Source of the DNA: Lepraria neglecta
Lineage: Eukaryota; Ascomycota; Lecanoromycetes; Lecanorales; Stereocaulaceae
Reading direction: 5' to 3'
Assembly (NCBI GenBank): GCA_033220425.1
Contig: CM065647.1
Location: 3,968,001 to 4,032,000, forward strand
DNA: 64,000 nt
The notes under the pieces were generated by a model. The model searched no databases. It worked only from the letters and a program-made list of their open reading frames with translations, and was not told the DNA's origin. Position 1 is the first letter of the stretch; each line of letters begins with the position of its first letter. Below are positions 990 through 56,833 of the stretch, one piece after another. The translations under genes and the position numbers were made by a program.

Positions 990-2116
990 TCAAGAATCCG
1001 CTGGCAAGTCTAACAATGCTGTCAAATTGGATAGCTCCGTTCCCGTGAAAAATGAAGCAACACCAGATTCTGCAGCCAGGTTCGATGGCACGGCCACTGT
1101 CGAGAACAAAGCCAGACTCAACTCTGCAGCTGCTGTAGGTAACGAGGCCGGCTCCGAACTCTCGGCGGAACCCAAAGGTATCTCGGTCGTGTTCGAGATC
1201 GAAAGCATTTGATTTGGGTTCAAAGCACCACCCTGGAACTTTACTACCTCCGCCACAATATACGCAGCCAAACTGCCTGGTTGGCTGAGGAACGGACTAT
1301 GGCCCGTTGGAATGTTAGCTACATCCCATTTCACTCCACTATGCTGAATCATGAGCTGCTGTCCAATTGGGGGAACAGCTTGATCCTCGGTGCAAACCAC
1401 GTATGCGCGTCGACCGTTATAGAACGAGTCAGACCAAGCTGGCGGTCCACTAGGAGTTTCCAGCGCATTCTGTGATTGGTTTTTGAGCCGAATTATAGCC
1501 TGTGAGGCCAATTGTGGCGAAACGTCGTTGTAGAAGATGTTCTTGGCATTCCGAACGCCCAGCTGACCGTCTTCCTGAATAGCGCACGTATCAGTCATTG
1601 ATTCAATACCTTACAGTTTTGCAGTAATGGAAAGAAAATATTTACATAATCTACTACCCAAGGGTCGAATTTCTTCCCAGGCAAAGAGCTGATGAGGGAT
1701 TGACCTTCCTGTGCGACGAATGCACAGATGAAGATCAGACCAATGATGCCACCTTTCCTCGAGGCGGCTGGCATTTCAGCTTTGCTCAAGCCTTTCGCTG
1801 CCATGGCACCTGGGCACCCGCCATAGGAATGCATGACGAGTACGATATCCCTGCCGGCGTTGATCAGGGGAAACAAAAGGTTCTGACGAATGAATGCCGC
1901 ATCACCGGTGACCGATTGCGAATAGGGATCTGTGGAGCTGCAACTTGGACTACGAGCGGATGATGTTGGGTAACCGGCCTTTTCTATCTCGGCAAGGAGC
2001 AAGCTGTAGTGGATAGGTGAGTGCCAGGCGCCGGGAATGAGGACAACTGTGGGCGATTGAGGTGCAGCCCAGATGATGGGGATGAATTGGAGAACGAGAA
2101 AAATTTGGAAGAGCAT
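990..2116 (-). CDS. Secreted alpha/beta-hydrolase-fold protein
   Basis: Two exons (1646-2116 and 990-1574) joined across a 71-nt GT-AG intron give 351 residues. The first 18 or so residues form a signal peptide (hydrophobic run, then AAP). The alpha/beta hydrolase core follows: VVLIPGAWHSP near residue 24, the nucleophile elbow MHSYGG with Ser97, the acid in CTEDQAVP and the histidine in GHSPF. The family includes esterases, lactonases and C-C hydrolases; the substrate cannot be read from sequence. The last 75 or so residues are an Ser/Ala/Thr-rich tail not normal for the fold. ATG codons at 2182 and 2149 lie in frame; 2116 is chosen because it places the signal peptide at the N-terminus. It is related to the hydrolase at 6881-7730, which lacks both the signal peptide and the tail. 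Confidence 0.75.
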
Positions 2117-2852
2117 TTTTTGAGCTGCATGGAATGTGAAGAGTGGCATCGCGAATACCTCGTCAACCAAAAGAGTGTGCATTTCGAGTACATTGCAAAG
2201 GATTGCGTGGTGAACTTATATGTGCAAGTTGACCGCTGACTTATCCGTGTTGTCGAGGCCGTTTCATCGTCGTTCAGGGGCGCTTCCTCACCGATGCGAT
2301 ATGCGCCCCCAACACAATCCCATGTTTGAGTTATTGCGTCCATACAAGTTGAATCCCGATGCATTGCAAGGAAAAAACGTGCGACACCGTGTCTGAGGTT
2401 GGCTTGATGGCTAATTCTATGGCTGACAAGGCGGCCGGAAGAACGCCCTGATTAGGCCCTGACTTTTTATGTTAGTAAGATGAATTGATGACAGTTTGAG
2501 ACTTCAAGATTAAAGATAGTACAGATAAGCGGTCAACAACCCTACGAGCTATTCCTGACGGCTCTATACAGCACTCTGGCCAATGAAAGCCATAGCATAC
2601 ATGGCACCGAGGCCACAGAATTTGCATGACATACTTTGATCTCCCATTGAAATGAGTATATATAGTCAACGACCATACTCAGAGTTTTTGACCTAACGAT
2701 GAAGATCTGTTCTCTTCGAAAGAAGTCAGTGCTCCGCCGCCTATCTCATGGCTTTCGAAAATATAGAATCATTCAGCGAGCGCAAGCAAAATGCACTGTC
2801 AATCAAGAATACCTTCATCGAGATCAAGGCACCCTGTTCGAACAAACTTCAA
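2117..2852. other. Intergenic stretch
   Basis: This lies between the hydrolase start and the 3' end of the UMTA-type methyltransferase. Short frames on both strands carry no family motif. It should contain the hydrolase promoter (minus strand) and a terminator; no specific site stands out. Confidence 0.4.
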
Positions 2853-6880: not shown

Positions 6881-7730
6881 ATGGCCCATTCGAAGGCAAC
6901 AATAGTCCTTGTGACTGGCGCCTGGCACCCCTCCAGCGCCTACAAGAGCCTCATATCTGACCTCGTAAATGCCGGATATCCTGTCCTCGTCACCAGCTTG
7001 CCCAGCCTCAACCCCAAAGACCCTTCAGTGTGCGATTGCAGCTCAGACGCTTCCTCTGTCCGCCAGCAGTTCCTTCCCGCGATCGAAGAAGAGGGCAAGG
7101 ATGTTATTCTTCTTTGCCACTCCTACGGCGGCATTCCTGGGGGAGGAGCCGCACATAGCTTGAGCAAGAGCGCGCGTATGCAGCAAGGGAAGAAGGGAGG
7201 CGTGGTGGGTTTGATATATATATCGGCGTTTGTTGTTCCTGAAGGAATGACTCTCGTGAATTACTTGGGCGGCAAGCACCCACCTTACCTTCTAGGTAAT
7301 AAGGTACGTATCAGTTTTGCCTTTACCACTTGCTCCCTGTTAGCAGAGACTTATGCTAATCTCCATCTAGCCCTCGGAAGGCCTATCTGAGGTTGGGACC
7401 GCCAAAAAGACTCTTTTCGGGGACGTACCTCCACCACATGACGAAGAGATAGAAAAATCTCTTCTCCCTCATGCTATGCTTGCGTTCGAATCGCCAGCTC
7501 CTCCCGCGGCGTGGGCACAGCCCGAGTATTCCGGCAAAATCGCCTTTTTGCGGTGCACCCAAGATGCTGCTTTGCCGACATTTTTGCAAGATCTGTTTGT
7601 GGACAAAAGCGAAGTGAAATGGATAGTGAAAGATATTGAGGCTTCGCATAGTCCTTTCGCGAGCAAGCCAGAAGAGGTTGTGCAGGCAGTGGAGAAGTTC
7701 GCTCAGGCGTTTGAGGGTGAGACGGCTTAG
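6881..7730 (+). CDS. Alpha/beta-hydrolase-fold protein, cytosolic
   Basis: Exons 6881-7303 and 7371-7730 (67-nt intron, GTACGT donor and CTAG acceptor) give 260 residues. The frame begins IVLVTGAWHPSSAY with no signal peptide. The nucleophile elbow is LLCHSYGG (Ser81), the acid lies in CTQDAALP and the histidine in ASHSPFASKP. Substrate specificity is unknown. It is a paralogue of the secreted hydrolase at 990-2116: the order of motifs and the loops around GKKGG(V/I)(V/I)GLI and (F/I)(V)(V/A)(P/Q)EG match. It lies next to the small O-methyltransferase, tail to tail, at the left side of the peptide cluster, so a role in that pathway (hydrolysis or cyclisation) is possible but only inferred from position. 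Confidence 0.78.
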
Positions 7731-7943
7731 GGGGTCGATTGCTTTCGGTCAGTGCTATTGAGACATGATGTTAGTGATGTGATGTACACTATACGTGTGT
7801 TTCCTCTAAAAGTGGGCGGCTTTAGACGGCATGAATACTTCTGAACAAAAGATAGATGGCATGCCACTGGAGCGGTAGATTTTCATCAGGTACATTAGGT
7901 ATATATCGACCTCCAAAATCACTTTATCATTAGAACCCGCATG

Positions 7944-9014
7944 CTATTGCTTCGCAGCTCCAGCTTCTTGTCGTTCTAGGTATCCTGCTCTCCACTTAAT
8001 CTGTGTCACTCCATCGAAAAGTGGCAAAATCAGGGTATCAATGCGTGGATCGTCCAAAAAGCTCTTGTTCAGTTTTCGCAGCGTCTCTCCGTTCGCCTCC
8101 CAAAATGGTCGTCTGATTTTCTCGATATAAGGATTAAACTCGTTGCCCATGGTTAGGCCACGCGCGAAGACTAGAGGCCACACAGAAGCCCACGGTCAGC
8201 CGCATGATGGTGAGGAAAAGGGTGCTCTTGTCATGGAGATGAGAAGAGTGTACCATTATCAACGAGAACGACACCATGAGGCGAGAGGAGTCTCCTTTCG
8301 AGAATACGATTCATGTATAATTGGTAGTTGTGCTTGTCTGCATCGAGGAAGATGAGGTCGAATTGGCCCTCCACATGCTCCAACCTAGATTCCCCGTCAT
8401 CAATGCTTGTATCCAGCCAGAATCCTGCGGTGGCCCCAGTTCTCCAACGTGGGAGCACACTCACATCGAAGCGGCTGGTCCCTCAATCACACGTATTCGA
8501 TCGTCCACACCAAGCTCCTTGAACATCTTCCTAGTGAAATTGAGCACCTCACCGCGTACGTCCAGAGTGATGATCTCGGCGTTCGTGGCGCGCGTGCCTT
8601 CGTACCACGCCAAAGCCGAGAAGCCAGTGAAGGTTCCAACTTCAAGGACTGCATTTACCTTCATCAACCTCTTGCTCGTAATTGCATGAGACGAATTAAG
8701 TATTGACAGGTTGACGTGACCGACCTCGCTTCGGGGCCATCCATTGGCTCATCCAGATCATCCACTGGCCTTGCAGCTTTGAGGACATCATCTCCGCGTC
8801 CATCCATGTTCGAACCGTCCACTCCCAGTGCTTATCTAGGCTTTCTGGAAGTTCTGTTACGCGTCAAAGAGACCGTTAGCTGAGATCATGCTGGGGATGA
8901 TAGGATTGGCCAGGGGTGGGCAGAGGGACCTTGCTTACCTTCTGAGTGCTTCTCGCAGTACTCCGACACCCTATCTGCCAGATCTGGAGAGAATGGAAGT
9001 ACACTACCTAGCAT
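7944..9014 (-). CDS. Caffeoyl-CoA-type (family 3) O-methyltransferase
   Basis: Five exons: 8939-9014, 8725-8853, 8465-8648, 8254-8384 and 7944-8170, giving 248 residues, the normal size for this family. The exon joins restore an unbroken family-3 pattern: PKRVLEVGTFTGFSALAW (SAM motif I, residues 66-83), VIEGPAA, FDLIFLDADKHNY (metal-binding acidic residues), then VVLVDN and a final DGVTQIKW. Such enzymes methylate vicinal catechol or phenol hydroxyls with a divalent cation. In this setting a plausible acceptor is an oxidised tyrosine of the cross-linked peptide, which is inference. The exon 3/4 acceptor at 8385 is the best of two phase-compatible choices. It is convergent with the hydrolase (213-bp gap). 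Confidence 0.8.
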
Positions 9015-9858
9015 GATTGCGATTGCAATTTCGGGATAAGTTACGTCTGTCTGTGTATGTGACGCGTTGAATTCATGACGAATGCTGCAGCCTCAACAAT
9101 GCCTAAGCGAGCGGAATAATCTGTGCAGACGCTTGTTCAATAAGGTAAGCCTGTTTGAGCTTGGCTGCTTTCGCGTGCATGTTTGCTTGCAAGGATCTAG
9201 AAGTCCTTCCGAAACTAGACGCCATAGCTTTGCCAGTGCTACCAAGCCAATCAATTCGTGAGCCGTGAGCGTGTGGACAAATCACCCAAGAGAGAGACAC
9301 CATTACTCTGTCCAGTGTGGTAGTTCTTGCGACAAGCTAATGCAGGCCATATCGAGTACCGGGCCCGCATTTGCACCTATGCTTTATTGGTACGGATGAA
9401 GTTGTGATGGTAATCGTCAGGAGTACTAGCGCAGCCTAAGTCCAGCGGCTAGAAGGACGGCATGGCAGAAAGTTAGATGACTTTATTTACACCGTCATAA
9501 ACTTTACAGCCTTTCCCTTTACCGTATAAGCTCCGGAAGCTTATCTCAGTAGCTTATCCGACCAAGTGCATGCACGCATGTAAGTAAATCCAATCGATGT
9601 TGACTAATCTTGAAACCTTTTGGAATGCAATCTCGGACAAGAGTATCCTGATCCACCCACACACCATTCAATTCACATTTATTAGTAGCAAGACACAAGA
9701 GAGGTGGGGAAGGGCAAGTCTCGTAGCTGCTTGGGCGCGTTCCAGTTCTAGCCGAGTCTGAACATATTCATGCGGTAAGTTTGCCTGGAATATAGCGCAG
9801 GAATCCTAGTGCGTATCTGCTGCGCTGCAGCCGACATTGGTCTTTTATGCGTTCGTTG
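9015..9858. other. Intergenic stretch
   Basis: This lies upstream of the small O-methyltransferase and downstream of the aminotransferase. A 66-codon minus-strand frame at 9103-9303 has no recognisable motif and is not called. Nothing else is seen. Confidence 0.4.
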
Positions 9859-11643
9859 TCAAAGATAAGCTTTCAACCTTCGAAGCCTACTCTTAGCAAG
9901 CTCCAGCTCAGCCTTCGTCTTACAGGCGACAAATCGCAGGTAATCCTCTGCAACGTGCGCATTGGCATTGCTGAAGGACGCTGTTCCGTACATGCGAGTC
10001 AGCCAAATGAAGACATCTCGTTTTGAATTTCGAAAGAAAAAGGTCCAACACTAACCACTTGCCGGGATCGTAGCGACACCCAATTCCTGGATCAAGAACC
10101 AGCAGAGTGCCCAGTCCCGCGATTTACCAACAATACTTGCGGGATACTTGTACCCCGCTGGAATCTTGATCCTACCGGCATTAACGAAAACGTAATGTGC
10201 GCCTGAAGGCTCCACGTACTGGAAAAGCGGTCAGATACGGTTTCGCGCGGATTTGCATTTCTCTACTGCAAGCTATGCGGTTGGTACTTACAGGCAATTC
10301 AAGCTCCCGGAAGACTTCGCAGAGACAGTCAATCTTGCTCTTCATGTCCTGGCGATTCTTCTCCCAGAACCCCTCTTCTTCTGCCTTTTCTAATCCGACT
10401 GCGGCTGCAATTTGTGAGGGACCAGCGGTACTGTAGCTCAAGATAATATGAGCATTCTGCACATGTTTGATCAAGTCTCTGTCACCGATGGCATAGCCGA
10501 TTCGCCAGCCCGTGGCGTTGAAAGCTTTGCCAATGGAGCCTATTGTCACAGTGTGCCTTGCAATTTCAGGACTTAGGGTTGCGATGCGATGAAAAATATT
10601 AGTGTAATGGAGGCGCTCATAAACCTCGTCAGAGAGGATGATGACTCTGTGTTTGACACATATCTTGCCGATGGAGAACAACTCATCGACAGTGAAAACT
10701 TTTCCAAGGGGATTGTGGCTTTTTAAATTAGCATATTCAAATGGCAGGTGATGCCCATGGGATACGTACGGATTATTCAGAACCAATATTCTGGTCTTTG
10801 GAGTCATTGCACTATCCAGATCCTGCAAGTCCAGAGTCCACTCATCCGCTCTGCTAACACTGGTTGCCGCATGGGTTGGTGGATGAAGTGGAACAGCTTT
10901 AAGGACTCCGCCAACGTATCTTGTGTGCAGTTCGTACCTGCCAGAGTCAACAAACACATGCGACGAAGGAATTTGACATGTTTACAAATCAAACGCCGGC
11001 TCTAACACAATCACTTCATCACCAGGTTCCACAAATGCAGTAATAGTACTCAGAATAGCTTCCGTGCCCCCGGAGTGGACTGAGATTTCCTTGTCCGGGT
11101 CGAGAATCCTTGCGTATAAGGGGGAGTAGACATCGGACAGTACTTCTCTAAAGCGTCGTAACCCCTGAAAACGCCAATCAGAAATGCCAAATTATTAAAT
11201 GTGGTAGTAGCCTGACATGTGTTGGACCATACTGGTTGCATTGAACTTGATCTAGGGCTTCTTTGTGAGCGTCGATCAGAAATTGGGGCGGATTATCTTG
11301 TCTATCTAGCTGTTAGCCGTAGATCATTTTTTTCTATGTTTTCTGACCCAAGGCCAAGACCGAGATTGGCAACAGGCTGGACGGGAGAGGCTTGTATGCT
11401 CAACGCAACCCACTCCCTTGGACTAATATTAGTGACACTCAATGTAAACAGCAAAATGTTATGTAGAGCTCACCAAACGCTATCAACCACAGCAGCTAGC
11501 TTCTTCGTGCCGCCTCTGGAGATCGACGATTGCCTTTGATCTTCTGCAGCAGGCTGAGTAGGAGATGATGTCCTCAGGCTCGACTCAAGCCGTTCCCTGG
11601 AGATCACATCAGTACTCGACCCCTGAGCTACGCATGTAATCAT
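9859..11643 (-). CDS. PLP-dependent class I/II aminotransferase, kynurenine-aminotransferase-like
   Basis: Eight exons: 11474-11643, 11348-11422, 11217-11301, 10986-11164, 10770-10937, 10292-10718, 10056-10218 and 9859-9980. Introns are 46-75 nt and the product is 462 residues. The first exon is a divergent N-terminus. Fold-type-I landmarks follow in order: NPPQF, CNQYGPTHGLRRF, ISVHSGGTEAIL, EPGDEVIVLEPAFD, NNPHNPLGK, DEVYERLHY (Asp256 and Tyr259 for PLP) and GSIGKAFNATGWRIGY with the Schiff-base Lys290. This order is that of kynurenine/glutamine transaminase K. All catalytic residues are present. A role in amino-group removal or exchange during peptide maturation, or in supplying an aromatic keto acid, is inferred only from its position beside the precursor gene. 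The start codon is the least certain part. Confidence 0.82.
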
Positions 11644-12134
11644 AACCGAAACTTTACCAGAGGTCGCTGATCAATGCAGCGAGCGGTTTTGTGATACTCC
11701 TAGAGGTAAAATGCTGACTCTGAGGCAATTCCATGTATGTTGAGTCGTCCACCTGTTGGGGTTTTGAAGTATACTACTATCAAGGCTGTCGAAAGGAGAT
11801 CTAACAAAGAATGGACTACTACTAGTGTTAGCCGAGGGCGGCCGGCCTCGCAACCGTGCTCTTGGGCTGTGCTATCTAATTCCATATCTGGGTTTTGGGG
11901 CATGGCGTGGCCCAATGAACATACAGCTGAAATTTGTTGCGGAACAATGACTTTACGAGTTCAAATAGATATCTAACGATTTAAAGCTACCTTCACAAGG
12001 TCTGCTCTCGGTCCCAACTCATCGCTATCCGGAAGCTCTGGAACTTCTAGCCCCCAAGGAGTTGGAAATTATACCACGCTTCTCCTGAACCTTGCCACGG
12101 CAAACTCGACTTTCACCTCAATCACCATACCCCT
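11644..12134. other. Intergenic stretch with a stray membrane-like frame
   Basis: This lies between the aminotransferase start and the precursor stop codon. A minus-strand frame at 11700-11915 contains one hydrophobic, membrane-like segment (LLDLLSTALIVVYF). It could be a remnant of a UstYa-type anchor, but no conserved UstYa motif follows, so it is not called as a gene. Confidence 0.35.
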
Positions 12135-12647
12135 CTAGTACGAGTCTGGGTAAGCAATGGCATCTTCGGAAGCGTCCCGCTTGTATGAGTCTGGGTATGC
12201 AATGGCATTATCCTCCTCCTTTGCCTCTCGTTTGTATGAATCGGGATATGCAATGGCGTCCTCAGACGCATCTCGTTTATATGAATCCGGGTACGCGATT
12301 GTATCCTCCTTAGCGTCTCGTTTGTACGAGTCTGGATACGCAATGGCATCTTCAGTCGCAGCAGCATCGCGCTTATATGAATCTGGGTACGCAATAGCGT
12401 CCTCCGCAGCATCTCTTTTGTAGGAGGGAGGATACGCAATAGTACTCTCGGTGGCACTCCGTTTGTAGGTGCTAGGATAGGAAATCACTTCTTCAGCTGC
12501 GTTCCATTTGGAGACTGCCAATGATTTAAGGTCTATCAATACTGTCAGTCAGGAATGATCTTGCTGAACAACCGCAAAGAACTTACCCAAAGGCGCAGCC
12601 AAGGCTCCCGCGCAGAGCGTGGCCGTAAGGAACACGGAGGAGTGCAT
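12135..12647 (-). CDS. Dikaritin-type RiPP precursor with eight Kex2-flanked core repeats
   Basis: Exons 12587-12647 and 12135-12532 (54-nt GTAAGT...ATAG intron) give 152 residues. The first exon encodes a signal peptide starting MHSSVFLT and ending ALAAP near residue 19. Residues 34-152 are eight units of 12-18 residues, each ending in a core and, except for the last, Lys-Arg. Cores 3-8 all read I-A-Y-P-D-S-Y; core 2 reads IAYPPSY and core 1 ISYPSTY. Spacers are acidic and usually begin D-A or E-A. This layout (signal peptide, acidic spacers, KR sites, short Tyr-containing core) is that of the ustiloxin and asperipin precursors. Two UstYa genes adjoin it, one divergent. The mature product is predicted to be a Tyr-containing cyclic peptide. 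The final copy runs directly into the stop codon without KR. The cleavage ends of the core are not known. Confidence 0.9.
12138..12494 (-). repeat. Coding tandem repeat of the precursor core (eight units of 36-54 nt)
   Basis: Units encode spacer, (V/I/T/A)-I-(A/S)-Y-P-x-(S/T)-Y and Lys-Arg. Codons differ between copies at many third positions (Tyr TAC or TAT; Pro CCA, CCC or CCG; Asp GAC or GAT; Ser TCA or TCG) while the core peptide stays fixed in copies 3-8. Confidence 0.9.
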
Positions 12648-13606
12648 GATTGACGAGTGCTGGTATCTTGGAGTTTCGCTCTCGGTCCAGTGGTCCTCGG
12701 GAATCGTGGTGGTGTTTTGGGTTTCCTATCGTCAGATTGATTTGTGTCTTGCCTATATGAAATAAACAACAGATAGCTGGATAAAGGGTTCAGTAGCCAG
12801 GCAACAGGGATCCAGGACCATGCGTCATTAAGGTGGTGATCCTCGGGTTGTTATTGTCAACAACCCATTTTCAAGACTCAGGCAGAGAATGCCCAGTCGT
12901 GCTGAAGAGGCTGTGTGGTGATTGCAGTACCCAAGGTGACCTTCCCCGATTTGTGTTCAATTACCGAACACGGGCGCTCTCGCGATGCACAAGGTCGATT
13001 TGCGATTGCCGCTCGCGCATGCGAGCCTACGCACACCGTTCTTCAGGTCTCACTTTTGTCATAGTAATTAAAGGAGAACGCCACATTGGAGTATTTATTG
13101 CTTGAGGGATTCTGTGGGCTTCGAGCTGAATTTGAGTTTTTAATTTGTGAGCTAGATGTTGCTTTGATAGGTCAAACACAGCTCATAGAAACAATGCCAG
13201 TGACACCGTGCGTAGACTAGGCGACCACAAAAGGCGAAAGTCGAGCGCTAGTGTTCAAACTTCAATGCCCAAGTCAACACGCATATCGAGTGTCGCATAT
13301 TCGGAGATAAAAAACTGCAGTCTGGGACCGCGGCGCAGGATCTTCTTTCCATACTAACCAATCAGGAGGCTCGCAACGAGGTGGATAATTTGCCGACGCA
13401 CGATTAACAAAACTTGCATACGACATGCATAATGTCTTTTATCTCCACAGAGTGAAAGTGCCTGTGGGAGATTGGAAGCTAATTGCAGCTGGGGGAATCA
13501 AGTTCGGCCTGCATTCGCGCTTCCGGATCCAACCCACGAGGCGAACTACTGACCCGGGAATCTTCTCAATGAGCATTGTTTATGGCAGAGGCCAAGTCTG
13601 GATAGG
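12648..13606. promoter_or_regulatory. Divergent promoter region between precursor and UstYa-1
   Basis: A gene-free 959-bp gap between the divergently transcribed precursor (minus) and first UstYa gene (plus). A TATA-like stretch sits at 12751-12760, about 105 bp before the precursor ATG on the minus strand. A CCGCGG palindrome lies at about 13328-13333. No regulator-binding site can be assigned. The shared gap suggests co-regulation of the two genes (inference). Confidence 0.45.
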
Positions 13607-14549
13607 ATGGTCCAAGAGCAAGAGGAGGAGCCTTTCCTCCCTTTAAAAGAATATGCTCAAGAGCCCAATACCGCACATCCATCCGTCGACTCGGTAAAGG
13701 GGCTTTCAAGATGGTGGGCGTGGAGATCACAGATCTTCATCCATGGCGCTCTCATAGCTCTCTACACAGTTCTCAGTGTCGCAGCTATTCGTACCCATAG
13801 CAACAGGCCCTTGGCCCCGAGGCGTAGGCTGCTCAATGACTCTTAGATAGATGACCCGTTTCTGACCTCGGTGATGTAGCTGCGATCGACAATTTGGACT
13901 CCAAATATACAAGGACCATCTTCCACAACCTCACTGGCAATCCGTACGCCGGACCACCATCCCCGGAAATCGACGCTGCATGGAGCGATCTTCTTGCACC
14001 AATGCACATTCGGGTCACGAAAGCGGAGCTCCAGCGCGACAATCAAGATTCGGTGCCGTTGACTGAGGGCGGTGGATATTTGGGCTGGATGGGAGTGTTC
14101 CACGAGCTCCATTGCGTTGTACGTGCTTACTGCAAGATATTTTCATAGTGATAGCCAGAGATTGTGTTGACATTGTATCCTCAGAACATGCTGCGGAAGT
14201 GGAATTATCGAGAATACTACCACAGTGATCTCAGCCCAGAGGAGGAGAAGCACTTGGGATCCCATATTGGTGAGTAGACTCTTTTTAGCCATCATAGAGC
14301 TTCCTGGTTTGCTTAATGGTAATCCCAGATCACTGCTTCGAGATGTTACGCCAGTCTGCCGTCTGCCACGCGGACGCCTCGTTGACCACCTTCAAGTGGC
14401 ATCCTGCAAAGACAAGGCCAATGTTCAACGCCAGCGAGTCCGTCCATAGTTGTGTAGACTGGGACATTCTCATGACATCTGTAGCTGATCGCGTTGTCCA
14501 AGAAGAGGAGATATCACGCTTAGATAATCCATTGATGAACGGAAAGTGA
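13607..14549 (+). CDS. UstYa/DUF3328-family oxidase-like protein (UstYa-1)
   Basis: Four exons: 13607-13823, 13880-14118, 14185-14269 and 14329-14549, giving 253 residues. A cytosolic N-terminus of about 45 residues is followed by one membrane anchor (residues 47-66) and a lumenal domain. That domain shows NPYAGPPSPEIDAAW and then both diagnostic HxxHC motifs: HELHC at residues 147-151 and HIDHC at 179-183, followed by FEMLRQ and VCHAD. The first join uses a weak GTAGGC donor, but it restores the frame and the family pattern. UstYa proteins oxidatively cyclise dikaritin precursors in the secretory pathway, probably using metal bound by these His/Cys residues. The gene is divergent from the precursor and convergent with UstYa-2. 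Confidence 0.88.
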
Positions 14550-14617
14550 AGGTTCTTCAAAAGATCCAAGAATGGCCAGTCTCGTTGATAGCCTGCGACT
14601 TAGGCACTTGTAAATGA

Positions 14618-15458
14618 TCATCGTTGATTTGTACCGCGATGCATGTGATGCTCATGGCGCGATGTGGCGTTCTCTGGCCGTGGATCCTGCTTGTATGCTT
14701 GCCACTTCGTAGTCCATTCAATCAGCTCGTTCCAATTTCGACATTTATGATCCGTGCCAAAACCAGTCACGCCACCGATCTCTTTGTCTTTCACCTCGAC
14801 GGTAGTGTCTGGTTGACACATCAGACTGTGCCGTAGCAAGTCTATGCAGTGTCGAATGTGCGGTGGGGAGGACATGAAAGGGAAATCCTCCTCTTCAACT
14901 TTTCGTCCTTCGACCGCAGCTGCGTAGACCTCCCAGTAGCCTTGACGAATACTGTCCTGCACGAAAGAGACGAGTCAGCGAGCAGATGACAGCGTAGAGA
15001 TGTACGTACCAGACAGTGAAGCTGATGGAAGACTGAGAATGCCGAGCGTTCAGGAGCCAAGGTAGGGTGCTTGAAGAAGCCACCTTGCTCAGGGAAGAGT
15101 CCGGCCCAAGCAGCATCGCTCATGTTGGAAGGTACGGAGCCGAAGGTTCTGTCATAGCGAAATACTTCGGATGTTGTGCTTACTGTCGAAACTAGTCAAC
15201 CTTCTCGTCACCATGGAACGTGCAGCTTGGGGTTTACCCACGCGGTATAGTGAGGAGAGATCGATCTATCACAGACAGCCTACCAGCAACAAAACTTGCA
15301 ACCACACCAAGTAGAGCCAAGAGCACGGCAATGACTGTGCGTGGAGGAATGTTGGAGAATAACGCCCTGCTGCTCGCCCTTGTTCTGCCATTCTCGAGTG
15401 ATGAGTAACGATAGCTTTCTTTAGAAAACAGTTTGAGCATGCTTGAATTCCAGAGCAA
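14618..15458 (-). CDS. UstYa/DUF3328-family oxidase-like protein (UstYa-2)
   Basis: Three exons: 15242-15458, 15010-15182 and 14618-14956, giving 242 residues (236 if the ATG at 15440 is used). A basic cytosolic N-terminus precedes a single membrane helix (about residues 39-60), then the lumenal domain with SAFSVFHQLHCL (HQLHC, residues 125-129) and PPHIRHCIDLLR (HIRHC, 163-167), followed by LMCQPD. Both HxxHC motifs are intact. The protein is clearly diverged from UstYa-1: only motif positions match. UstYb-like partners are common in dikaritin clusters and may act on a different bond or as a pair. The exon 1/2 join has two phase-compatible acceptors (15183 chosen). Only 68 bp separate its stop codon from that of UstYa-1. 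Confidence 0.86.
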
Positions 15459-15907
15459 TCTCTGGCGGAAGTCGATCAGCGAATTACAACACTCAGTGAA
15501 CGCGATCTCCTCGAGATACTGTCAAACAAAATCTTTAAACATTCTTGCACTTATTTTGGCTCGTAGCTAAAGTGAACGCAGGAAGATCCATGCATGAGGT
15601 GCATCCGTTAGCGCTCAGGCTAAGGTAAAATTACGTTATGTCCTGGATGCGCAATACACTGCTAGAATCAGCCTATCGGACATGGAAAACTTGCTTTCGG
15701 AGAAATGGGCTCCCTTAATGAGGCAGAAGTAGATCGTCCAAATTGGTTAGTGAGGTGAGTATTGGCACACCGCTTTGTCGGAACTCTCCTTTGCAATACA
15801 CCCTCATCATTCCTGTTATTTGATTTCTTAGCGTTGCACAGCAAGCTCTGTCCAGATACTGTTCTTTCGAGTCTTTCTCAATCCAAGTCTAATCTGACAT
15901 AGCGAAA
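15459..15907. promoter_or_regulatory. Divergent promoter region between UstYa-2 and the large O-methyltransferase
   Basis: A 449-bp gene-free gap with divergent genes on either side. No named element is recognisable. The arrangement again suggests paired expression of cluster genes. Confidence 0.4.
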
Positions 15908-17434
15908 ATGGCTGCAAGTCGTATGGCCGAGCTTGCTCTGCTCATTGCAACTAATACAGCCAACATCGATACCTATCTTGCATCAAAGGGACTTCCAACA
16001 CCTTCCTTTGATGCAAGTCAACCAGCTCACTTACTGAATGATAATAAACTTGCGGCGGCTCGCCGAGCAGTCCTCGAAGCAACCGACGAGCTTCATGCTC
16101 TCATGCTCGGGCCAATTGGAATATTGACATCTCCTTCCGTACGTGCATCCCGTCTGCATCTGCTGGAACTCGGAGCTAAGACTGATAGAAACAAATGGAG
16201 ACAGCACAATTTCATGATCAGCCTTCAAGCCATCTGTCGATTTGGTCTCGCCACTGGTTTCCCTACTGGCAAGGATCAAGCGACATTTGGAGAAATCGCT
16301 TCCTCGTCAGGTGTCTGTGAGTCTCAACTGCGTAGGATTTTGCGGCATGCTATGACATTTCGAATTTTCTGCGAACCTCGCAAAGGCGTTGTCGCACATA
16401 CCGCTGCCTCAAAAGTGCTAGCTGAGAACACTCTGATGCGTGAGTGGATCGGAATGGTATCTGACGAGATGTGGCCAGCCGCCTCCAGAGTAAGTCCTCT
16501 CTGCAGAATTTTGAATCGAAACAAGAGGCTAAGGATCCTGCCAACATAGACAGTCGAAGCTTTGGCCAGATGGCCTGGTTCAGAAGAGCCAAATCAGTCG
16601 GCAAGGAATCTCTCGGTCTGAGCTGCAACTCAGAGGTACTAAGATTCACCAGGGTTTCAATATCGCCCATGACACAGACAAGACCGTATTTGATGAACTT
16701 GCCAAGCATCCAGAGCGAGAAAAACGCTATGCAGCAGCTATGACCTGGTTTAGTACGGGACCAGGACTTGAACCCACCCATGTTGTTGGCGGCTTTGCCT
16801 GGGACAGCATTGGCAAAGGCACCATTGTAGATATCGGTGGTTCTCACGGCTCCGTTAGTATTGCACTCGCGCAGAGCTTCCCATCTGTCCATTGTATAGT
16901 CCAGGACCAGGCCGACGTCGTCAAAGTTGCACAGACAAACCTGTCTCTCGATCTAGCAACCCGAGTGGCCTTCATGGAGCATGACTTTTTCACAGAACAG
17001 CCCGTTAAAGGAGCAGATGTCTATCTCTTGCGCTGGATCTTGCATGATTGGTCCGACGCTTATGCCATCCGGATACTCAGAGCTTTGATTCCTGCACTGA
17101 AACAGGGGTCCAAGATCGTCGTCTGCGAGCATATATTGCCGGAGCCAGGGACGGTTTCAACATACCAAGAGAGAGCTTCACGGTAAGTAACAATCCCCTG
17201 GAGCAGCTGAGATCGGCCCACTGATCGGAACATTGCTCAAGATCATTTGACCTGGCAATGCTAGAATTCCACAACGCGAAGGAGCGCGACATTGACGACT
17301 GGACCAATCTGTTTGGAACAGCGGATCCGATGTTCAGGTTTCTAGGGTTTAAGCAGCCTCCAGGATCTAGGCTGGCAATCATAGAAGTCGATTGGCTGGG
17401 TGGCAATGCAAAAGTCAATAGTACATGCAACTAA
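15908..17434 (+). CDS. Fungal COMT-like SAM-dependent O-methyltransferase
   Basis: Five exons: 15908-16138, 16205-16489, 16550-16600, 16653-17182 and 17242-17434, giving 429 residues. An N-terminal dimerisation/winged-helix part is followed by TVEALARWPGSEEPNQS|GF, IVDIGGSHGSVSIAL (SAM motif I, residues 247-261), LLRWILHDWSD with the usual catalytic His320, and VCEHILPEPG. This is the family-2 O-methyltransferase pattern common in fungal metabolite clusters (phenol hydroxyl acceptor). Intron 3 (16601-16652) begins GC rather than GT; the only nearby GT would leave a 37-nt intron and break the PNQ-x-GF motif. It is divergent from UstYa-2 and upstream of the P450. A peptide tyrosine is a plausible acceptor (inference). 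Confidence 0.85.
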
Positions 17435-17906
17435 GGGTCAATTAGGAGCGAAAAGGAATGAGTTGGAATATGGGGAGACGCGTCTTGTTCCTGCTTCAGA
17501 TCACGCAGCAGGCTGGCTGAATACGTAGTAGTGGCCAGAGCATGCGGAAGAAGCCGTTGCCGAATGCATGCAGTCAGCACGACAGCGTTGGGGTGTATGG
17601 CAGGCACGTTGGAGAATGGAGATAGTTTTAGAAATTTGTTATTAGAGCTAGCGGCGAGACTAGACTTTAAACGGATAGTGCTGAGTCGCTTTAGCGGTGG
17701 CTCGCGCATATTTCCTTTCACCTCTGCGCTCCTGAGGCAAAGCGTTGTAGACTAGTGATCATCCAATCGCCGAGGTGCGCATAGCGGTCCCAGATTGCAC
17801 GTCACCGGCGGCGGAGCCCATCTCAGGGTCTGTCTATTTTGCTAACTTATCTATCGCCGAAGCAGTTCTATATGCTCTTTATGCTGCCTTCTAGGCTTTT
17901 CTCAAT
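17435..17906. other. Intergenic stretch
   Basis: Spacer between the O-methyltransferase and the P450, both on the plus strand. It holds the P450 promoter by position; no motif can be named. Confidence 0.4.
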
Positions 17907-19427
17907 ATGGCTGTCTCGAGTATCTTCATGGTTGCAATCTCCATTCTTTTCATCTTCCATGGCATCCCCATCGTTCAGCGGTTCCTATCGCGCCGCAAAG
18001 CCAGCCGCAGCCATGGGTGTTTGCCACCCCCCTCAATACCCCAGCGAGATCCCATATTCGGCCTTGACGTGATTTTACAACTTTTCAAGGCTGTACAAAA
18101 AGGTCAACGCAACATGTCAATGAGGCAATTATTTAAGGTATACGGCCACACCTTCCAGTCCAAGTCTTGGACTTCAGCCACAATATACACGATAGAGCCC
18201 AGAAATCTGCAAGCAATATTCGCTACAGATTTTACAAGCTGGGGTGTCCAGCCTATGCGCCTTTTCGCTTTCAAGCCATTTGTGGGCAAGGGCATTATGT
18301 GTGCTGATGGGACGTTTTGGGAGCAATCAAGAGCTTTGATCAAACCTACTTTTGCAAGAGCGCAGATTGCGGACCTTCATCTTGCTGCATATGCGGTTCA
18401 CGTGGAGAAGCTGTTTGATTTATTGCCTAGAGATGGCGCTACGGTCGATCTCCAGCCTCTGTTTTCTCGTCTGGCTCTTGACTCTTCAACCGAGTTCCTA
18501 TTTGGCGAATCTGTTGGCTCTCTGTCGCCAAACACAATATCCCTTGACGCTAAGTCTTTCCTTAAAGCCTACGACTATGGACAAATGGTCGTCGGCAGGA
18601 GACTCCACCTTCCGCAATGGAACTTCCTCACGCGTGACAAGAAATTCTGGGACTCCTGCAGAATTGCTCGTGAATTCGTGGACAGCTATATCGAAAAAGG
18701 TCAACACATTGTTGATCAGGCCAAAAAGGGCAATGAAGCGCCAAAACGATACATCTTAGCTCACGAATTGATCAAAGAGACCGGAGACCCAGACAATATT
18801 CGGAATCAATTACTCAATATATTCCTTCCCGCCCACGAAGCAGTGGGCGCAGCTCTAACCAACGTCTTTTTCAACCTCGCCCGTAGTCCTAACGTCTATA
18901 CGAAACTCCACCAAGAGATCGTAGCTGCAGCAAATGACCAAGCACCCTGGACATTCGAGCGCCTTAAGAGCCTCAGATATCTCCAATACGTCATCAATGA
19001 GACGTTCCGCCTCAACCCAGCTATCGGAACAGATACCCGCATGGCACTGCAGGATACCATCCTCCCCACAGGCGGTGGTCCGTCCGGCACATCTCCCATC
19101 TTCGTAAAGAGACGCGATATCGTGACAATGAGTTTCTACGCCTTGCATAGGCGTCAAGACCTATTCGGCGACGACGCGAACGTCTTTCGACCTGAGAGAT
19201 GGGAGACGCTGCGGCCTGTACATTGGAGCTACCTCACTTTTGGCGGTGGACCAAGGGTCTGTCCAGGTCAGCAGTTGGCGCTGACGGAGGTGGGGTATAC
19301 GATTGTGAAGATCATGGAGACGTTTAAGGGGATTGAGAATCGTGATCCGGTAAAGGGGTTCATTGAAGTTTACAAGATCACTACTACGAGTCAAAATGGG
19401 GCGAAAGTCGCGCTTTTGCCAGCCTAG
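17907..19427 (+). CDS. Cytochrome P450, CYP52/CYP539-like, altered I-helix
   Basis: A single exon of 506 residues, complete. An N-terminal membrane anchor (residues 2-20) precedes the proline-rich hinge LPPPSIPQRDP. Helix C has WEQSR, the K-helix ExxR is ETFR, the PERF-type motif is FRPERW, and the haem loop is FGGGPRVCPGQ with Cys452. Overall it resembles the alkane/fatty-acid hydroxylase clan. The I-helix, normally (A/G)GxDTT, reads PAHEAVGA: the acid is Glu and both threonines are replaced (Ala, Val). That threonine normally helps protonate the oxygen intermediate, so the chemistry may be unusual or the enzyme weak. It is intronless among intron-rich neighbours. It is the right-hand member of the cluster by position. 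Confidence 0.85.
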   Translation: MAVSSIFMVAISILFIFHGIPIVQRFLSRRKASRSHGCLPPPSIPQRDPIFGLDVILQLFKAVQKGQRNMSMRQLFKVYGHTFQSKSWTSATIYTIEPRNLQAIFATDFTSWGVQPMRLFAFKPFVGKGIMCADGTFWEQSRALIKPTFARAQIADLHLAAYAVHVEKLFDLLPRDGATVDLQPLFSRLALDSSTEFLFGESVGSLSPNTISLDAKSFLKAYDYGQMVVGRRLHLPQWNFLTRDKKFWDSCRIAREFVDSYIEKGQHIVDQAKKGNEAPKRYILAHELIKETGDPDNIRNQLLNIFLPAHEAVGAALTNVFFNLARSPNVYTKLHQEIVAAANDQAPWTFERLKSLRYLQYVINETFRLNPAIGTDTRMALQDTILPTGGGPSGTSPIFVKRRDIVTMSFYALHRRQDLFGDDANVFRPERWETLRPVHWSYLTFGGGPRVCPGQQLALTEVGYTIVKIMETFKGIENRDPVKGFIEVYKITTTSQNGAKVALLPA

Positions 19428-23274: not shown

Positions 23275-25686
23275 TTACACGAGTTTAGGATTACCATACC
23301 TCTTGGCAAACATGCCTAGCGCTTTTATGGGAAAAGTGAACTTGTAGTTCGGATAGGAAATCATGCTATGCTCTCTGTCAGCTAGACCATCCCAGATCGC
23401 AATAAAGGACGAACGACGATCAGAAGATTGCACCTACACGCTCTTATTAAACACCCCCTCAATTCCCTCCTGCAACCATTCTCCATTCCTCTGCTGCCGT
23501 CCCATTATCAGCTTCACAGCTCTCTCGATAGGCTCTCGATCCGGGTATTCCGCAACCATTAACCCAATAATCGCCCAGCTAGTCATGACGACCTGGCTTT
23601 CGCGCTGTACATAGACGCCCATCTCGCAACTCTTATAGCTCTCTCCCCATCCGCCATCATCTCTCTGCTTGCCGATGAAGAACTCACATGCCTTAGCGAC
23701 ACGAGGACTATTGGTGTAGTTTTCACCCACGGAAGCGAAAGACTCAAGAGCGAACATGCCTGCGTAGGTGAAGCAAATGCCCCAGCTGCCATACCATGAT
23801 CCATCAGGGCGTTGGGCTTTGCGGATGTATTTGAGAGCGCCGTCAAGTGCTCTTGAGATGTCTGACTTCCGATAGCTAGGGTCGTGTTTCGAGAAGAGGC
23901 GGAGCGCTGTGACGACTGCTGTACTGCATTCAGGATAGTCGTACTCGACCATTATCCTGCCAAAGACCTCAGCTGCGTTGAGCACCTCTAAATATTCGGA
24001 GCCTCGTGTGGGCTCGTATGACGCAAATCCCCCGGATGCATTTTGCATTGTTAGCAGTGTATCGATCGCGTCTTGAATCCTCTCATCGGAGACCTGCTTA
24101 GGATATCCAGGCAGGCGCTGTAACATAAGCACAGCTTTCAGTGCTTCACTAGTGGTATCGCTGACAGTGTACCCCTGCGTTTTGGTGCTGAAAGCCCATG
24201 CACCCTTCCGCCGCTGCCGATAACAAACATCTTGCTCCATGCAGTTCTCCCTGATTTGCTGGTCTTCCAGAAATTCCAGCGCTTTAGTCAGCATCGGCTT
24301 CCATTTTGGATCCTCAGCCAGTCCAGCTTCCACAACCGCCTGGACTAGCCAAGACGTATCCCACGTCTGCACTCCATTGGTGCCATTGACAAGCATGCCT
24401 TCGTGCTTCATCCAAAGAAATTCAGGCAGGCGCTCTCGGTGACGCTTTACGGGGTAGCTGTCGGGCCCATCGTGGATGTAACAAGCGACCATGTTCATTG
24501 GCGAGCTGACGGGAGCCAGGTTAGCGAAATCGGTGTTTTCATCTTCCCGCTGGATCAAGTCAAATGTCCAGTCTTCAGCCCACTTTTTGATAGGGTCGGT
24601 CCGGAGGAATGGAATCCATATGTAGACGAGAATCCAATTGATGATGGTGAGTATTAATGATTTCGGGTGGTAATTATCTCGAGGTGAAATGCTGTTACGA
24701 TGCGATGCGAAATTGACGGACGAGTACGATTGGGTATAAATCTCTTCGCGAATTCGTCGAACCAAGGGGTTTGAGGGGAAAACGAACTTCGTAGAGTAAA
24801 TATATGACATCGGCAGAAAGACTTGGCGCATGTGTATCCACCACCGCCAAGGAGCGAACGGCACCCAATCTGGAACAAGCCTGTGTCCAGGTATCAGCGC
24901 TGCTACAATTACCCCCATGGATTTGTCCAATAGCATACCATAGCTCTGGAGGCACAGGATTGACAGCATCCCACTCCATCACGCCCAGAACAGCGAGCCA
25001 GAACTTCGCCCAATGTGGCCCATTGACCGCTCCCCCAAGTTTATGCAGCATGCCCCTCGCCTTGATCATCCTCTTGTCCTCTTCGTCCGCACCCAATAAC
25101 CTCAGCACAACATAGGTCATCGTAGTCCCATAAGCCGTGCTCTCCCCCTCAATATGTAGACCCCACCCTCCATCTTCGGGACTCTGTCTTGCGAAAAGAT
25201 ACCGCTTCATCTCGACAGCAATTGGCTTCGGTATTGGCGTATTCGTGACATACCACGCAAATACCATGCCGGGAAGGAGAAACATGGGGCCTCCATATTC
25301 GCAGGCCCAATTGCCTGGTGGTAGCTGTAGCTGTGAGAAGAAGGAGAGAGCGTTTTGGACGGAGTCTGTTGGTGTCTTGGGTGGAGGGAGGTCAGGCAGG
25401 TCCTAGAGCAGCTTCGTCAGTCATAGCATCCCTCGAGCTGGAAGTTGGGACTGACCAGTGGCAGTCCTAGGAAGTATTTGTCCGCAGTGCTTTGAGGCCA
25501 GGCTTTGACTTCCTCGTCACTTTCTAGATGATGCCATGTTTGGCAACCACGTTCGTCTAGGAGTCTCCATCGCTGGATGTCTGTCTTCTCCTCTTGCTCG
25601 GTGCTGGGGGTGATGGCAGAGCCATTGCGGTGCTTCTGGTCGGAGACGGCGTTATTATTCAAGCTGCTATGCTTGTTCTTGACCAT
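23275..25686 (-). CDS. Divergent oxidosqualene cyclase (lanosterol-synthase family)
   Basis: Four exons: 25456-25686, 24939-25402, 23438-24880 and 23275-23365, giving 742 residues, the usual length. Repeated QW motifs are present (QSPEDGGW, QNASGGF, QRPDGSW, QRDDGGW, QRNGEW). Conserved segments include PHWAKFWLA, NPVPPELW and FAPWRWWIHMRQVFLPMSY, and the C-terminal FNKSVMISYPNYKF resembles lanosterol synthases. The catalytic motif is SDTTSE: Asp473 is kept, but the next residue, Cys in nearly all such enzymes, is Thr. The segment normally FTYGT reads FTYAG. It therefore cyclises 2,3-oxidosqualene or a similar epoxide, with product uncertain. It may be a specialised paralogue and not the housekeeping ERG7; a second copy in the genome would settle that. 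It lies on the endoplasmic reticulum or lipid particles by family. Confidence 0.85.
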
Positions 25687-48098: not shown

Positions 48099-49541
48099 AT
48101 GACTACGCCAATCCCACAGCCACCAGGTATTCCCTTGTTGGGAAACATTTTCAACGTAGATCCGAGCAACACATGGACGTCATTGCAGAAGCTGTGGGAA
48201 AAGTATGGTTAGTAGTGTGTCCTTGCTCGATTTTCCATTTCCATCAACTGATATCCATCAACTGATATCGTTATGTCAGGCGAGATCTTCAAGATAACTG
48301 TCTTGGGCCAACAGATTGTCTTCGTGGGGAATGTTGCACTGTGTGAAGAACTTTGCGATGAGAAGCGATTTCGCAAATTCGTCGGTGGCCCTATAGTAGA
48401 GATCCGATATGCAGTCCATGCTTCTCTTTTCACCGCATTTGACAACGAGGCGAGCTGGGGCGTTCATCATCGAATTCTGGCTCCCTTGCTCACTCCAGCA
48501 GCTGTTGCTGAGTCTTTCATCGAAGTGCGTGATTGTGGGTCCGAACTGATTGCCAAATGGCGGGGCTTGAGCAGTGATTCTCCTGTTTCAGCAATTGGTG
48601 AATTGAATCGACTAGACTTGGAAACGACCACCCTCTGCTTCTACGGCAAGAAGCTCAACGGCCTGACTGGACCAGAATCACCAATGATCAAGGCGATGGA
48701 CGAAGCCACGTCAGAGGCGATCAAACGACCGACTCGACCCAGATTTGTGAACTGGCTTTTTTATCAATCTAAATTCGAGAAATACTCCAAAGCCATGCGC
48801 CAATATGCTGCAGAATGTCTCGAATATCGAAAGGCTAATCCAACTGACCGAAAAGACATGCTATATGCCATGATGAACGCCAAAGATCCCGAAACCGGTA
48901 AATCCCTTGATGAACAGCAGATTATTGACGAGATTGTGACGATGCCCATCGGATCCAGCACGGCGCCCTGCGTTATCTCAAGTGCAATTTATTATCTGCT
49001 CAAGAACCCTGAGAGTGTGACAAAAGCCCGTGAAGAGATCGATTCGGTCATCGGTGATGGCGAGTTCACACACGATCATCTGGAGAAATTGTCCTATTGC
49101 GCCGGAATCGTACGGGAATCCCTGCGCCTGTCTGCGGCGGCACCTGGGTTCAACATTGAGCCCTTGCCAGACACACAAGGACCTGTTCTGCTAGGTGGAG
49201 GCAAATATCAAGTCCCAGCCAAGCAGACTATGATCGTTGTGCTGCATGGCGTGAATCGCGACCCAGCCGTCTTTGAAGAGCCCGAAACTTTCAAGCCAGA
49301 AAGGATGGTGGGCGAGGCGTTTGAAAAGCTACCTGAAGGTGCCAAGAAATGGTTTGGAAACGGCAAACGCGTATGTGTTGGTAGGCATTATGCATGGATG
49401 TGGAACATGACTACAATTGTCACGCTATTGAAAGAGGTGGATATCGAAATGGCCGACCCGAGCTATCAGCTAAAACAGGATGGCTGGTTTAATCTGAGAC
49501 CTGTTGATTTCTACATCAAAGTTAAGCCAAGGGCCAAGTAA
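48099..49541 (+). CDS. Cytochrome P450, CYP505/BM3-like haem domain without reductase
   Basis: Exons 48099-48207 and 48280-49541 give 456 residues. The start MTTPIPQPPGIPLLGNIFNVD matches the BM3/CYP505 N-terminus (no membrane anchor). K-helix ESLR, the FKPERM motif and haem loop FGNGKRVCVGRHYAW (Cys402) are intact. Fused CYP505 enzymes continue into a flavin reductase; here the stop follows directly after KVKPRAK, so it needs a separate partner. The I-helix reads IGSSTAPC instead of AGxETT: a Thr is present but the acid before it is Ser. Fatty-acid-type hydroxylation is likely by family. The small intron contains an exact 14-bp tandem duplication. Confidence 0.82.
48241..48268 (+). repeat. 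Exact 14-bp tandem duplication inside a P450 intron
   Basis: The unit ccatcaactgatat occurs twice without spacer. It lies near the 3' end of the 72-nt intron and duplicates the likely branch-point region (CTGAT). Confidence 0.7.
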
Positions 49542-55146: not shown

Positions 55147-56833
55147 TCAATTCAGCAACTCCGCAAAAGCAAAGCCCCACTGATCACCCTTGCATCCATC
55201 TCTTTCTGTAATTTTCACCTTCACGTCTTCTTTGGGCGGACAGATTGAGCTAGCAACCCTTGTCGTATCAGTCTCCGGCACCTTCCACCTCTTGCCGTCC
55301 GCAGGCTCCATATCAAATCTCAACACCACCATCGCAACCGCACTCACGATCTCTGTCGTGGCAAAGAAGCGCCCAGGACAAAGCGTCTGCCCGCCTCCCC
55401 ATGCTCGATACGCACCAGGCTTGGTGTTAGTATCCTTCTTTAGGAAGCGGCGAGGATTGTACTCTGTGGCGTTGGCGCCCCAAACAGGGTCTGCATGGAT
55501 CAGAGCGCCGGGGATTAAGAGGATGGAATCCTTCTTGAGAAGGTATTGGTTGTTTAGGAGAGTGTCTTCCATGACCCAGCGATGGCTGGATGAGAGGGTG
55601 CGCAGGCGAAGGACCTCGCGGTAGGCGGAGACGATAAGAGGACAGGTCTCTTCGAGGGTGGTGATGTCTATGGTATGTCTACGACGGCCGTCCTTTGATA
55701 TCTGAACTTTCAAAACTCCAGAAGCGGAGATCTCATCCCGGATGTCTCCAAGCAGCGCAGAGTCAGAGTAGATGTGAAGTAAAGTCCAGAAGAACGTCGG
55801 CTGTGCATTGACGAGCACGCCGAGTAGATCGCCAATCTCGAATAGAGCAATGTCTGAAGTAGTGGCCCCGTACTTCCTTGCAACATCATGGCGCACTCTG
55901 ATAACTCCGAGCCCGTTCTTGTGATCTCCACGTCCAAAGTACCTGATCATGGCTTGCTGGATCTTGCGGCGCCCAGCGTAGCCCTTGCGTGCGAGTATTC
56001 GTGGTGCTACGCCTAGAATCATCATTGTGAGATCTTGATCGAAGTCCCTTTTGCGTGTTTGTTAGCTCTGGGAACTAAATATACTGACATGTTTGACACG
56101 GAGACGAGACCATTATGCTTACCAGAATGCACTTTCCAAGCCTGGCTCAACTTTGAACGGATTCCCTGGGCCATAGATTGCTTGAGTACTGGCGATTGTG
56201 AACCTAGGACGGATCCATGCGAAGAGATCTACATCGATTCCACCCTCACTTGCAAGCTCGTCGAAATAAGTGGCCATGATGCTAAGCATACTTCGATTCA
56301 TGTGGTCGAGATTAGATCCAGGTGCCATCTCGCTGTGCATGCCCTTGGATGTTTCATTTACGAGCCCCCAATTTCCATCTTTGCCGTCGATATTGTGCTT
56401 CACTATCTCCATGGCGCCGCCTTTGGTGGGAATTCCAAATATCCTTGGGGTCATGGCTGAGATGAATGGGAAGAATGAGAGTGTTTTCTGGTTGCGTTCG
56501 CAAGCCGTGACTAGGTCGGCGGACGCGACTACGTACGTCCTTTTGCTAGCGGTTTGGAGGGTGAAAATGGGGAGTGACTTGTTCTCGGCGCTGCAGCGAA
56601 GTTGTCAATGATAGTCATCTCTGTTGGCAGAGGGCAACGAACCTTGAGATGCTGAAGTAGCGCCCACCGTATCTGATCAGCCCCAGTATATGCCCAACAT
56701 ATGGAATCATGTGAGGAATGACTGGTGGCTCCCGTGCATCGTATTCTGGGCTGAAGAGGTAGACACTTGAAATGTAGATAACAATGACCGCAATAAAGAT
56801 AAACACAATAGTTGATGCCCACTCCAAAGCCAT
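55147..56833 (-). CDS. Cytochrome P450, CYP7/CYP8-like
   Basis: Exons 56643-56833, 56123-56590 and 55147-56047 give 519 residues. The first 25 residues are a membrane anchor (TIVFIFIAVIVIYISSVYLF), followed by the Pro hinge PPVIPHMIPYVGHILGL. The I-helix region is VLVNAQPTFFWTLLHIY, as in the oxysterol 7-alpha-hydroxylase and prostacyclin-synthase clan, where AxPT replaces the usual AGxDTT. EVLR (ExxR), YNPRRFL and the haem loop WGGGQTLCPGRFFA (Cys443) are intact. Fungal members act on sterols, fatty acids or cluster metabolites; the substrate here is unknown. The first join (AG|GTTCGT donor) is weaker than the second. It ends 30 bp past the TRM61 stop, tail to tail. Confidence 0.82.

Follow-up and report, generated by a model that had tools for sequence, protein, structure and literature searches.

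The window analysed here is a stretch of 64,000 nucleotides from the lichen-forming fungus Lepraria neglecta (Stereocaulaceae, Lecanorales; assembly GCA_033220425.1, contig CM065647.1, positions 3,968,001 to 4,032,000), and positions given below without a contig name are counted from its first letter. Between 6881, the ATG of a hydrolase model, and 19427, the stop codon of a cytochrome P450 gene, it carries a candidate cluster for a ribosomally synthesised and post-translationally modified peptide (RiPP), in which a gene for a secreted-type repeat precursor lies beside two genes of the UstYa/DUF3328 family, as a preliminary description of the sequence had proposed.

The repeat precursor and its core

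The precursor gene (12135..12647, minus strand) consists of two exons, 12647-12587 and 12532-12135, separated by a 54-nt intron (12586-12533, GTAAGT..GATAG). With this choice of splice sites it encodes 152 residues, beginning with an N-terminus that looks hydrophobic and signal-like by eye. Alternative acceptors of the intron are also open (a simple gene finder used another one and arrived at 146 rather than 152 residues), with effects limited to residues ahead of or inside the first repeat. The repeat array occupies 12138..12485 of the same strand and reads ISYPSTY, IAYPPSY and then six times IAYPDSY. Eight copies of a Tyr-x-x-x-Tyr core, each flanked by Lys-Arg (KR), had been described: the eight repeats are there, six of them exactly IAYPDSY, while KR follows seven of the eight, the count being off by one because the last repeat runs into the stop codon.

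The six identical cores are not encoded by identical DNA: each of the seven codon columns contains two or three codons, and the 15 pairwise comparisons yield not one nonsynonymous difference over 245 sites against 58 that are synonymous, or 0.83 per synonymous site, figures that do not amount to a formal rate test because copies within one array can exchange sequence. These six cores are under selection. Given this substitution pattern, the 16 relatives described below and the finding of no second precursor copy in a search of the L. neglecta genome, the array is more than a product of chance. The drift of two of the eight repeats might suggest that the cluster has decayed or fallen silent in L. 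neglecta. We consider this very improbable in view of the selection on the other six, the open reading and intact motifs of the precursor, both UstYa genes and the P450, and the presence in another record (P0131) of a precursor piece 96% identical to ours, covering 33% of the query.

Two protein searches, one of them limited to scoring the 7997 candidates with the most words in common with the query, returned 16 different proteins related to the precursor (weakest E 2.8e-3). They include proteins from Seirophora villosa, S. scorigena, Rusavskia elegans, Haloplaca sp., Endocarpon pusillum, Byssothecium circinans and Bimuria novae-zelandiae and fall into the Lecanoromycetes, Eurotiomycetes and Dothideomycetes, the class placement of Seirophora, Haloplaca and Bimuria being our presumption. 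Several are fragments or misannotated, and some nearly duplicate one another or the window's own precursor. In the relatives from B. circinans and B. novae-zelandiae (P0132 and P0133), both non-lichen Pleosporales, the precursor is of the same type with Glu mostly replacing Asp (VAYPESY), and the family therefore extends beyond lichens.

The consensus across the relatives is [IV]AYP[DE][SA]Y-KR. At 64 of the 75 KR sites with ten preceding residues (window included), Tyr is found at both -5 and -1; one of the 11 remaining sites belongs to a repeat in which His replaces the first Tyr, and the other ten were judged to lie outside intact repeats. Our claim of Tyr conservation rests on this count, because a separate list of 76 repeats was drawn up with a regular expression that fixed position 3 as Tyr and admitted only Tyr or Asn at position 7. 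In that list position 4 is Pro in 74 repeats, position 5 is Asp in 59 and Glu in 12, position 6 is Ser in 58 and Ala in 13, and an Ala stands immediately upstream of the core in 61. At the level of sequence, then, the core is conserved across genera and unusually well kept.

A full-text search of PubMed Central (PMC) with the core letters found no fungal paper on IAYPDSY among the matches listed, supplementary tables and subscription papers being beyond its reach; by title and abstract the listed matches were unrelated to fungi, most of them concerning EphA2-targeting peptides. Within that reach the core is undescribed, as had been suggested, and it may be listed unnamed in the supplementary tables of a survey of 1461 strains (PMC7329392).

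The two UstYa genes

UstYa-1 (13607..14549, plus strand) and the precursor are divergently transcribed from a common 959-bp promoter region. The gene has four exons and encodes 253 residues with the motifs HELHC and HIDHC; it scores 151.7 bits against the Pfam UstYa model (cut-off 25 bits) and, in our splicing, matches the annotated L. neglecta protein OEA41_003745 at all 253 residues (100% identity). UstYa-2 (14618..15440, minus strand) has three exons and encodes 239 (or 236) residues with the motifs HQLHC and HIRHC; it scores 86.7 bits and has homologues up to 70% identical. The motifs match what is described for the DUF3328 protein CctR, a membrane-associated enzyme in which HxxHC(x)nHxxHC binds two copper ions (PMC12435403). 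In the predicted structure of UstYa-1 (mean predicted local distance difference test score 86.4), residues 32-65 form a long N-terminal helix, and the motifs fall on helices 144-159 and 170-193. Neither a sequence search up to E 1 nor a Foldseek search up to E 0.001 found a solved relative; relaxing the Foldseek limit to E 10 brought in 252 weaker matches.

A search with both proteins returned 143 matches at E <=1e-10. The 120 of these that were listed split cleanly into 51 of the UstYa-1 type and 69 of the UstYa-2 type, each scoring at least 125 bits against one query and at most 63.5 against the other, so that in sequence the two are distinct lineages. Both HxxHC motifs are present in 86 of the 120, many of the others being short; an alignment of 48 of them, chosen mostly as full-length, shows no variation at the His, His and Cys of the second motif and almost none at their counterparts in the first. 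Among the matches listed, eight other contigs contain both lineages. Three carry one gene of each lineage under adjacent locus tags (Lecanora helva, ACLMJK_000353/000354; Xylographa opegraphella; Agyrium rufum), and five further pairs (P0014/P0029, P0015/P0027, P0018/P0022, P0034/P0105 and P0097/P0121, one of them from the dothideomycete Viridothelium virens) were recognised by equal contig size, taken as a proxy for a single contig.

Neighbouring genes and cluster membership

The preliminary description had surrounded the precursor and the UstYa genes with two O-methyltransferases, an aminotransferase, a P450 and a hydrolase. Pfam finds all five, the two methyltransferases belonging to different families, and the case for including them in the cluster differs from gene to gene.

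It is best for the P450 (17907..19427, plus strand), a single exon of 506 residues from an ATG at 17907 that scores 181.7 bits against Pfam p450. In R. elegans, Q9199_004503 (P0128) is annotated as one protein comprising repeats and a partial P450, the latter 43% identical to the window P450 over 277 columns. This looks like a gene model that merges precursor repeats with part of an adjoining P450, and the two genes would therefore be neighbours there. In the L. neglecta genome, 42 UstYa matches form 21 regions; extended by 10 kb in both directions, these regions cover 1.1% of the sequence. Paralogues of the P450 were merged from 85 matches into 33 loci of at least 40 bits, weaker rows and the window's own being excluded. 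UstYa genes lie within 10 kb of 6 of the 14 closest loci, compared with 2 among the other 19, which are more distant (Fisher P 0.042). This is the fairer comparison because two of the six loci share one place and because secondary-metabolite genes cluster, so that uniform-placement P values, 5e-9 for the 6 of 14, are overstatements. The P450 had no match among PDB sequences at 1e-30, and assignment to the RiPP P450 ApyO, its best NCBIfam match, was rejected because 80 bits is far under the cut-off of 525.

Counted in the same way, paralogues of the Methyltransf_2 O-methyltransferase OMT-B (15908..17434, plus strand; 104.9 bits) formed 16 loci of at least 40 bits from 26 matches, and 2 of the 9 close ones are within 10 kb of a UstYa gene (uniform-placement P 0.004). 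For the class I/II aminotransferase (9748..11643, minus strand; 98.3 bits for the open reading frame (ORF) 10181-10981, with the ends and some exons uncertain), whose nearest solved relative is yeast BNA3 (3b46, E 1.2e-46), this holds for 1 of 3 paralogue loci (P 0.03), the match in question being interrupted by stop codons that may mark introns. The Methyltransf_3 O-methyltransferase OMT-A (7944..9014, minus strand; 105.9 bits) has no paralogue in the genome, and none of the 11 paralogue loci of the alpha/beta hydrolase (6881..7730, plus strand; Abhydrolase_6, 75 bits) lies within 10 kb of a UstYa gene. On the strength of the R. elegans fusion and these counts, a cluster core of precursor, UstYa-1, UstYa-2 and P450 is supported and OMT-B is a likely member; OMT-A and the aminotransferase are possible members, mainly by position, and membership of the hydrolase is unsupported.

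A candidate 9-mer found in 3 of 6 cluster promoters was rejected, being equalled by 39% of 300 resampled sets. No transporter was found among the window ORFs submitted to Pfam, a subset of all those in the window. The hydrolase has a relative at 990-2182 (minus strand), 41% identical in one exon, and between the two sit a methyltransferase and a rhodopsin-like membrane protein. On the other side, a squalene/oxidosqualene cyclase-type gene (23434-25686, minus strand), possibly sterol housekeeping, adjoins the cluster. Two further P450 genes (48099-49541, plus strand; 55147-56833, minus strand) are found amid apparent housekeeping genes, for example one for the GCD14 tRNA methyltransferase subunit.

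Elsewhere in the genome, a second UstYa pair at C1:6118766-6136442 is accompanied by a tyrosinase, a paralogue of OMT-B and two relatives of the window P450; judged by its sequence this is an ustiloxin-like gene set, and no KR-repeat precursor was seen in the 10 kb of it that were read. UstYa genes and relatives of the window P450 are also no more than ~5 kb apart at C7:2046544-2054820, C6:1018436-1025182, C5:520450-530536 (here again with an OMT-B paralogue) and C1:2472707-2479495, a pattern that in sequence is a recurrent UstYa-P450 module. A crude scan for KR repeats took in 42 sources (3367 ORFs), including, of the other UstYa regions, a stretch of 10 kb at each of C1, C7 and C6 plus the short loci L001-L007. 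Apart from one unrelated protein in L017, it returned only the window's own precursor, which was recovered from the overlapping L009 and L010 as well.

Interpretation and comparison with known systems

We interpret the locus, with a probability of about 0.8, as a putative RiPP cluster that depends on UstYa enzymes, broadly of the dikaritin type and without a tyrosinase. Several points weigh against this. Comparison of the precursor matches with the 120 listed of the 143 UstYa matches, with equal contig size as a proxy, found no contig that carries both outside Lepraria, so that their linkage is known only in the L. neglecta genome; the one named precursor species among the listed UstYa matches, Bimuria, has the two genes on separate contigs of 1,069,214 and 21,433 bp. 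Two of the eight repeats deviate from the consensus, and no promoter motif is common to the cluster genes above chance. All 16 of the genome's tyrosinase matches fall outside the window, with just one of them on its contig, ~1.4 Mb away at C2:5409707, and a six-frame, intron-blind search of the genome gave no match for an S41 peptidase. Finally, parts of the gene models are our own reading: the 5' splicing of UstYa-2 has no outside annotation and the gene finder prefers a shorter, 150-residue model from 15123, the P450 was started by the gene finder at 18255 rather than 17907, and the exon model of the aminotransferase is imperfect.

Among the matches listed, then, no other species has the precursor beside a UstYa gene, and acidic X-Ala spacers like those between our repeats are likewise found in yeast mating-factor precursors. 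Both observations would suit a linear, Kex2-processed, pheromone- or signal-like peptide that is secreted unmodified, with the UstYa and P450 enzymes serving another substrate, and most Kex2 repeat proteins (78% of 7878) indeed have no DUF3328 neighbours (PMC7329392). We nevertheless think such a peptide improbable. Two UstYa genes adjoin the precursor although the surroundings of UstYa genes make up so little of the genome, and in the same survey mating-factor precursors almost never adjoin DUF3328 genes; Tyr occurs there in 65.6% of the repeats beside DUF3328 as against 38.2% of those without, and the core here has two.

For a UstYa-dependent RiPP, we propose that the precursor would enter the secretory pathway, where Kex2 would cleave after each KR and a carboxypeptidase would take off the KR; trimming of the acidic X-Ala spacer would then leave about (I)AYPDSY. 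The two presumably membrane-anchored, copper-dependent UstYa enzymes would oxidise this released peptide, our leading guess being bonds from Tyr phenols to side-chain carbons that close one or two rings (-2H or -4H). Tailoring would fall to the P450, to at least one of the two methyltransferases and perhaps to the aminotransferase. By analogy a Tyr-linked macrocycle is plausible: it is favoured because the Tyr residues of the three characterised Tyr-containing products, ustiloxins, phomopsins and asperipin-2a, carry ether bonds (PMC7329392, PMC6514808), and two rings are suggested by the presence of two Tyr residues and two UstYa lineages.

Within the same UstYa-dependent reading, the chemistry may instead be hydroxylation, dehydrogenation or a Tyr-Tyr coupling by the P450. 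DUF3328 enzymes have been implicated in hydroxylation and halogenation besides macrocyclisation (PMC12435403), and the R. elegans fusion ties the P450 lineage to the precursor. With the ether bonds of the known products on the other side, and with both Tyr residues the best kept of the core, we see this as possible, if the less likely course. Rather more speculative, and in our view doubtful, is a widespread RiPP family in lichen fungi of more than one class and some Pleosporales, which would combine a near-constant [IV]AYP[DE][SA]Y core with a dedicated UstYa pair and a partner P450 lineage, would yield a tyrosine-bridged, probably bicyclic peptide for symbiosis or defence, and would have had its precursor overlooked by lichen genome surveys. 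The repeated conserved core gives exact masses to seek: calculated [M+H]+ values are 828.377 for linear IAYPDSY, 826.362 for its -2H form, 824.346 for -4H and 838.362 for -4H +CH2, with 715.293, 713.278 and 711.262 for the corresponding linear, -2H and -4H forms of AYPDSY and 644.256, 642.241 and 640.225 for those of YPDSY. Because its core pairs two Tyr residues, its UstYa genes belong to two lineages and no tyrosinase lies nearby, the cluster also makes a clean system for dissecting the role of each UstYa enzyme.

How closely the cluster resembles the known ones depends on the definition applied. The five-gene definition of dikaritins (Ding et al., quoted in PMC12048977) names a precursor, multiple DUF3328 genes, a methyltransferase, a tyrosinase, and a transporter or peptidase, and the same source notes that some functional clusters are without one or more of these. 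Here we find a precursor with leader and repeated core, two UstYa genes and two O-methyltransferases (by Pfam, with a putative role on the peptide), and the tyrosinase is missing. The features by which ustiloxin-type precursors were recognised in PMC7329392, a signal peptide (here by eye), Kex2 repeats and DUF3328 nearby, are all present at this one locus, and because they occur together the cluster qualifies as a dikaritin in the broad sense. The initial assignment to the dikaritins therefore holds for a UstYa-associated precursor with a paired-Tyr core and not for the tyrosinase of the narrower definition, which lies outside the window.

The absence of a tyrosinase is shared with the four-gene cluster for asperipin-2a of Aspergillus flavus, which also pairs a multi-Tyr core with a UstYa-type oxidase (PMC6514808); there a single UstYa homologue is accompanied by a reductase and a transporter, whereas ours has two UstYa genes, a P450 and methyltransferases, and the cores differ (FYYTGY and IAYPDSY). 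Ustiloxin and phomopsin clusters resemble ours in the signal and Kex2 repeats, in two or more UstYa genes and a methyltransferase and, for ustiloxin, in a P450 and a pyridoxal phosphate (PLP)-dependent enzyme. Unlike ours, they need a tyrosinase and have cores of the Y-x-I-x type, and UstD, the PLP enzyme of ustiloxin, is reported to decarboxylate aspartate, whereas the one here resembles kynurenine aminotransferase. The epichloecyclins of Epichloe, from GigA, likewise derive from a KR-repeat precursor of a mutualistic fungus and have an oxidative ring at Tyr (PMC6514808), but their producer is a grass endophyte, the core is different and lysine methylation is reported. UstYa homologues are also present in the lichen RiPP clans R1 and R2 of Parmeliaceae (PMC12048977). 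Clan R1 has two UstYa genes and an O-methyltransferase, as here, but also a tyrosinase and neither a P450 nor a PLP gene, and by its membership criteria the L. neglecta cluster, with its P450 and aminotransferase and without a tyrosinase in the window, falls outside it. That lichen-wide survey reported many UstYa genes and no conserved repeated core in these two conserved clans, whereas in L. neglecta the repeated core is now visible.

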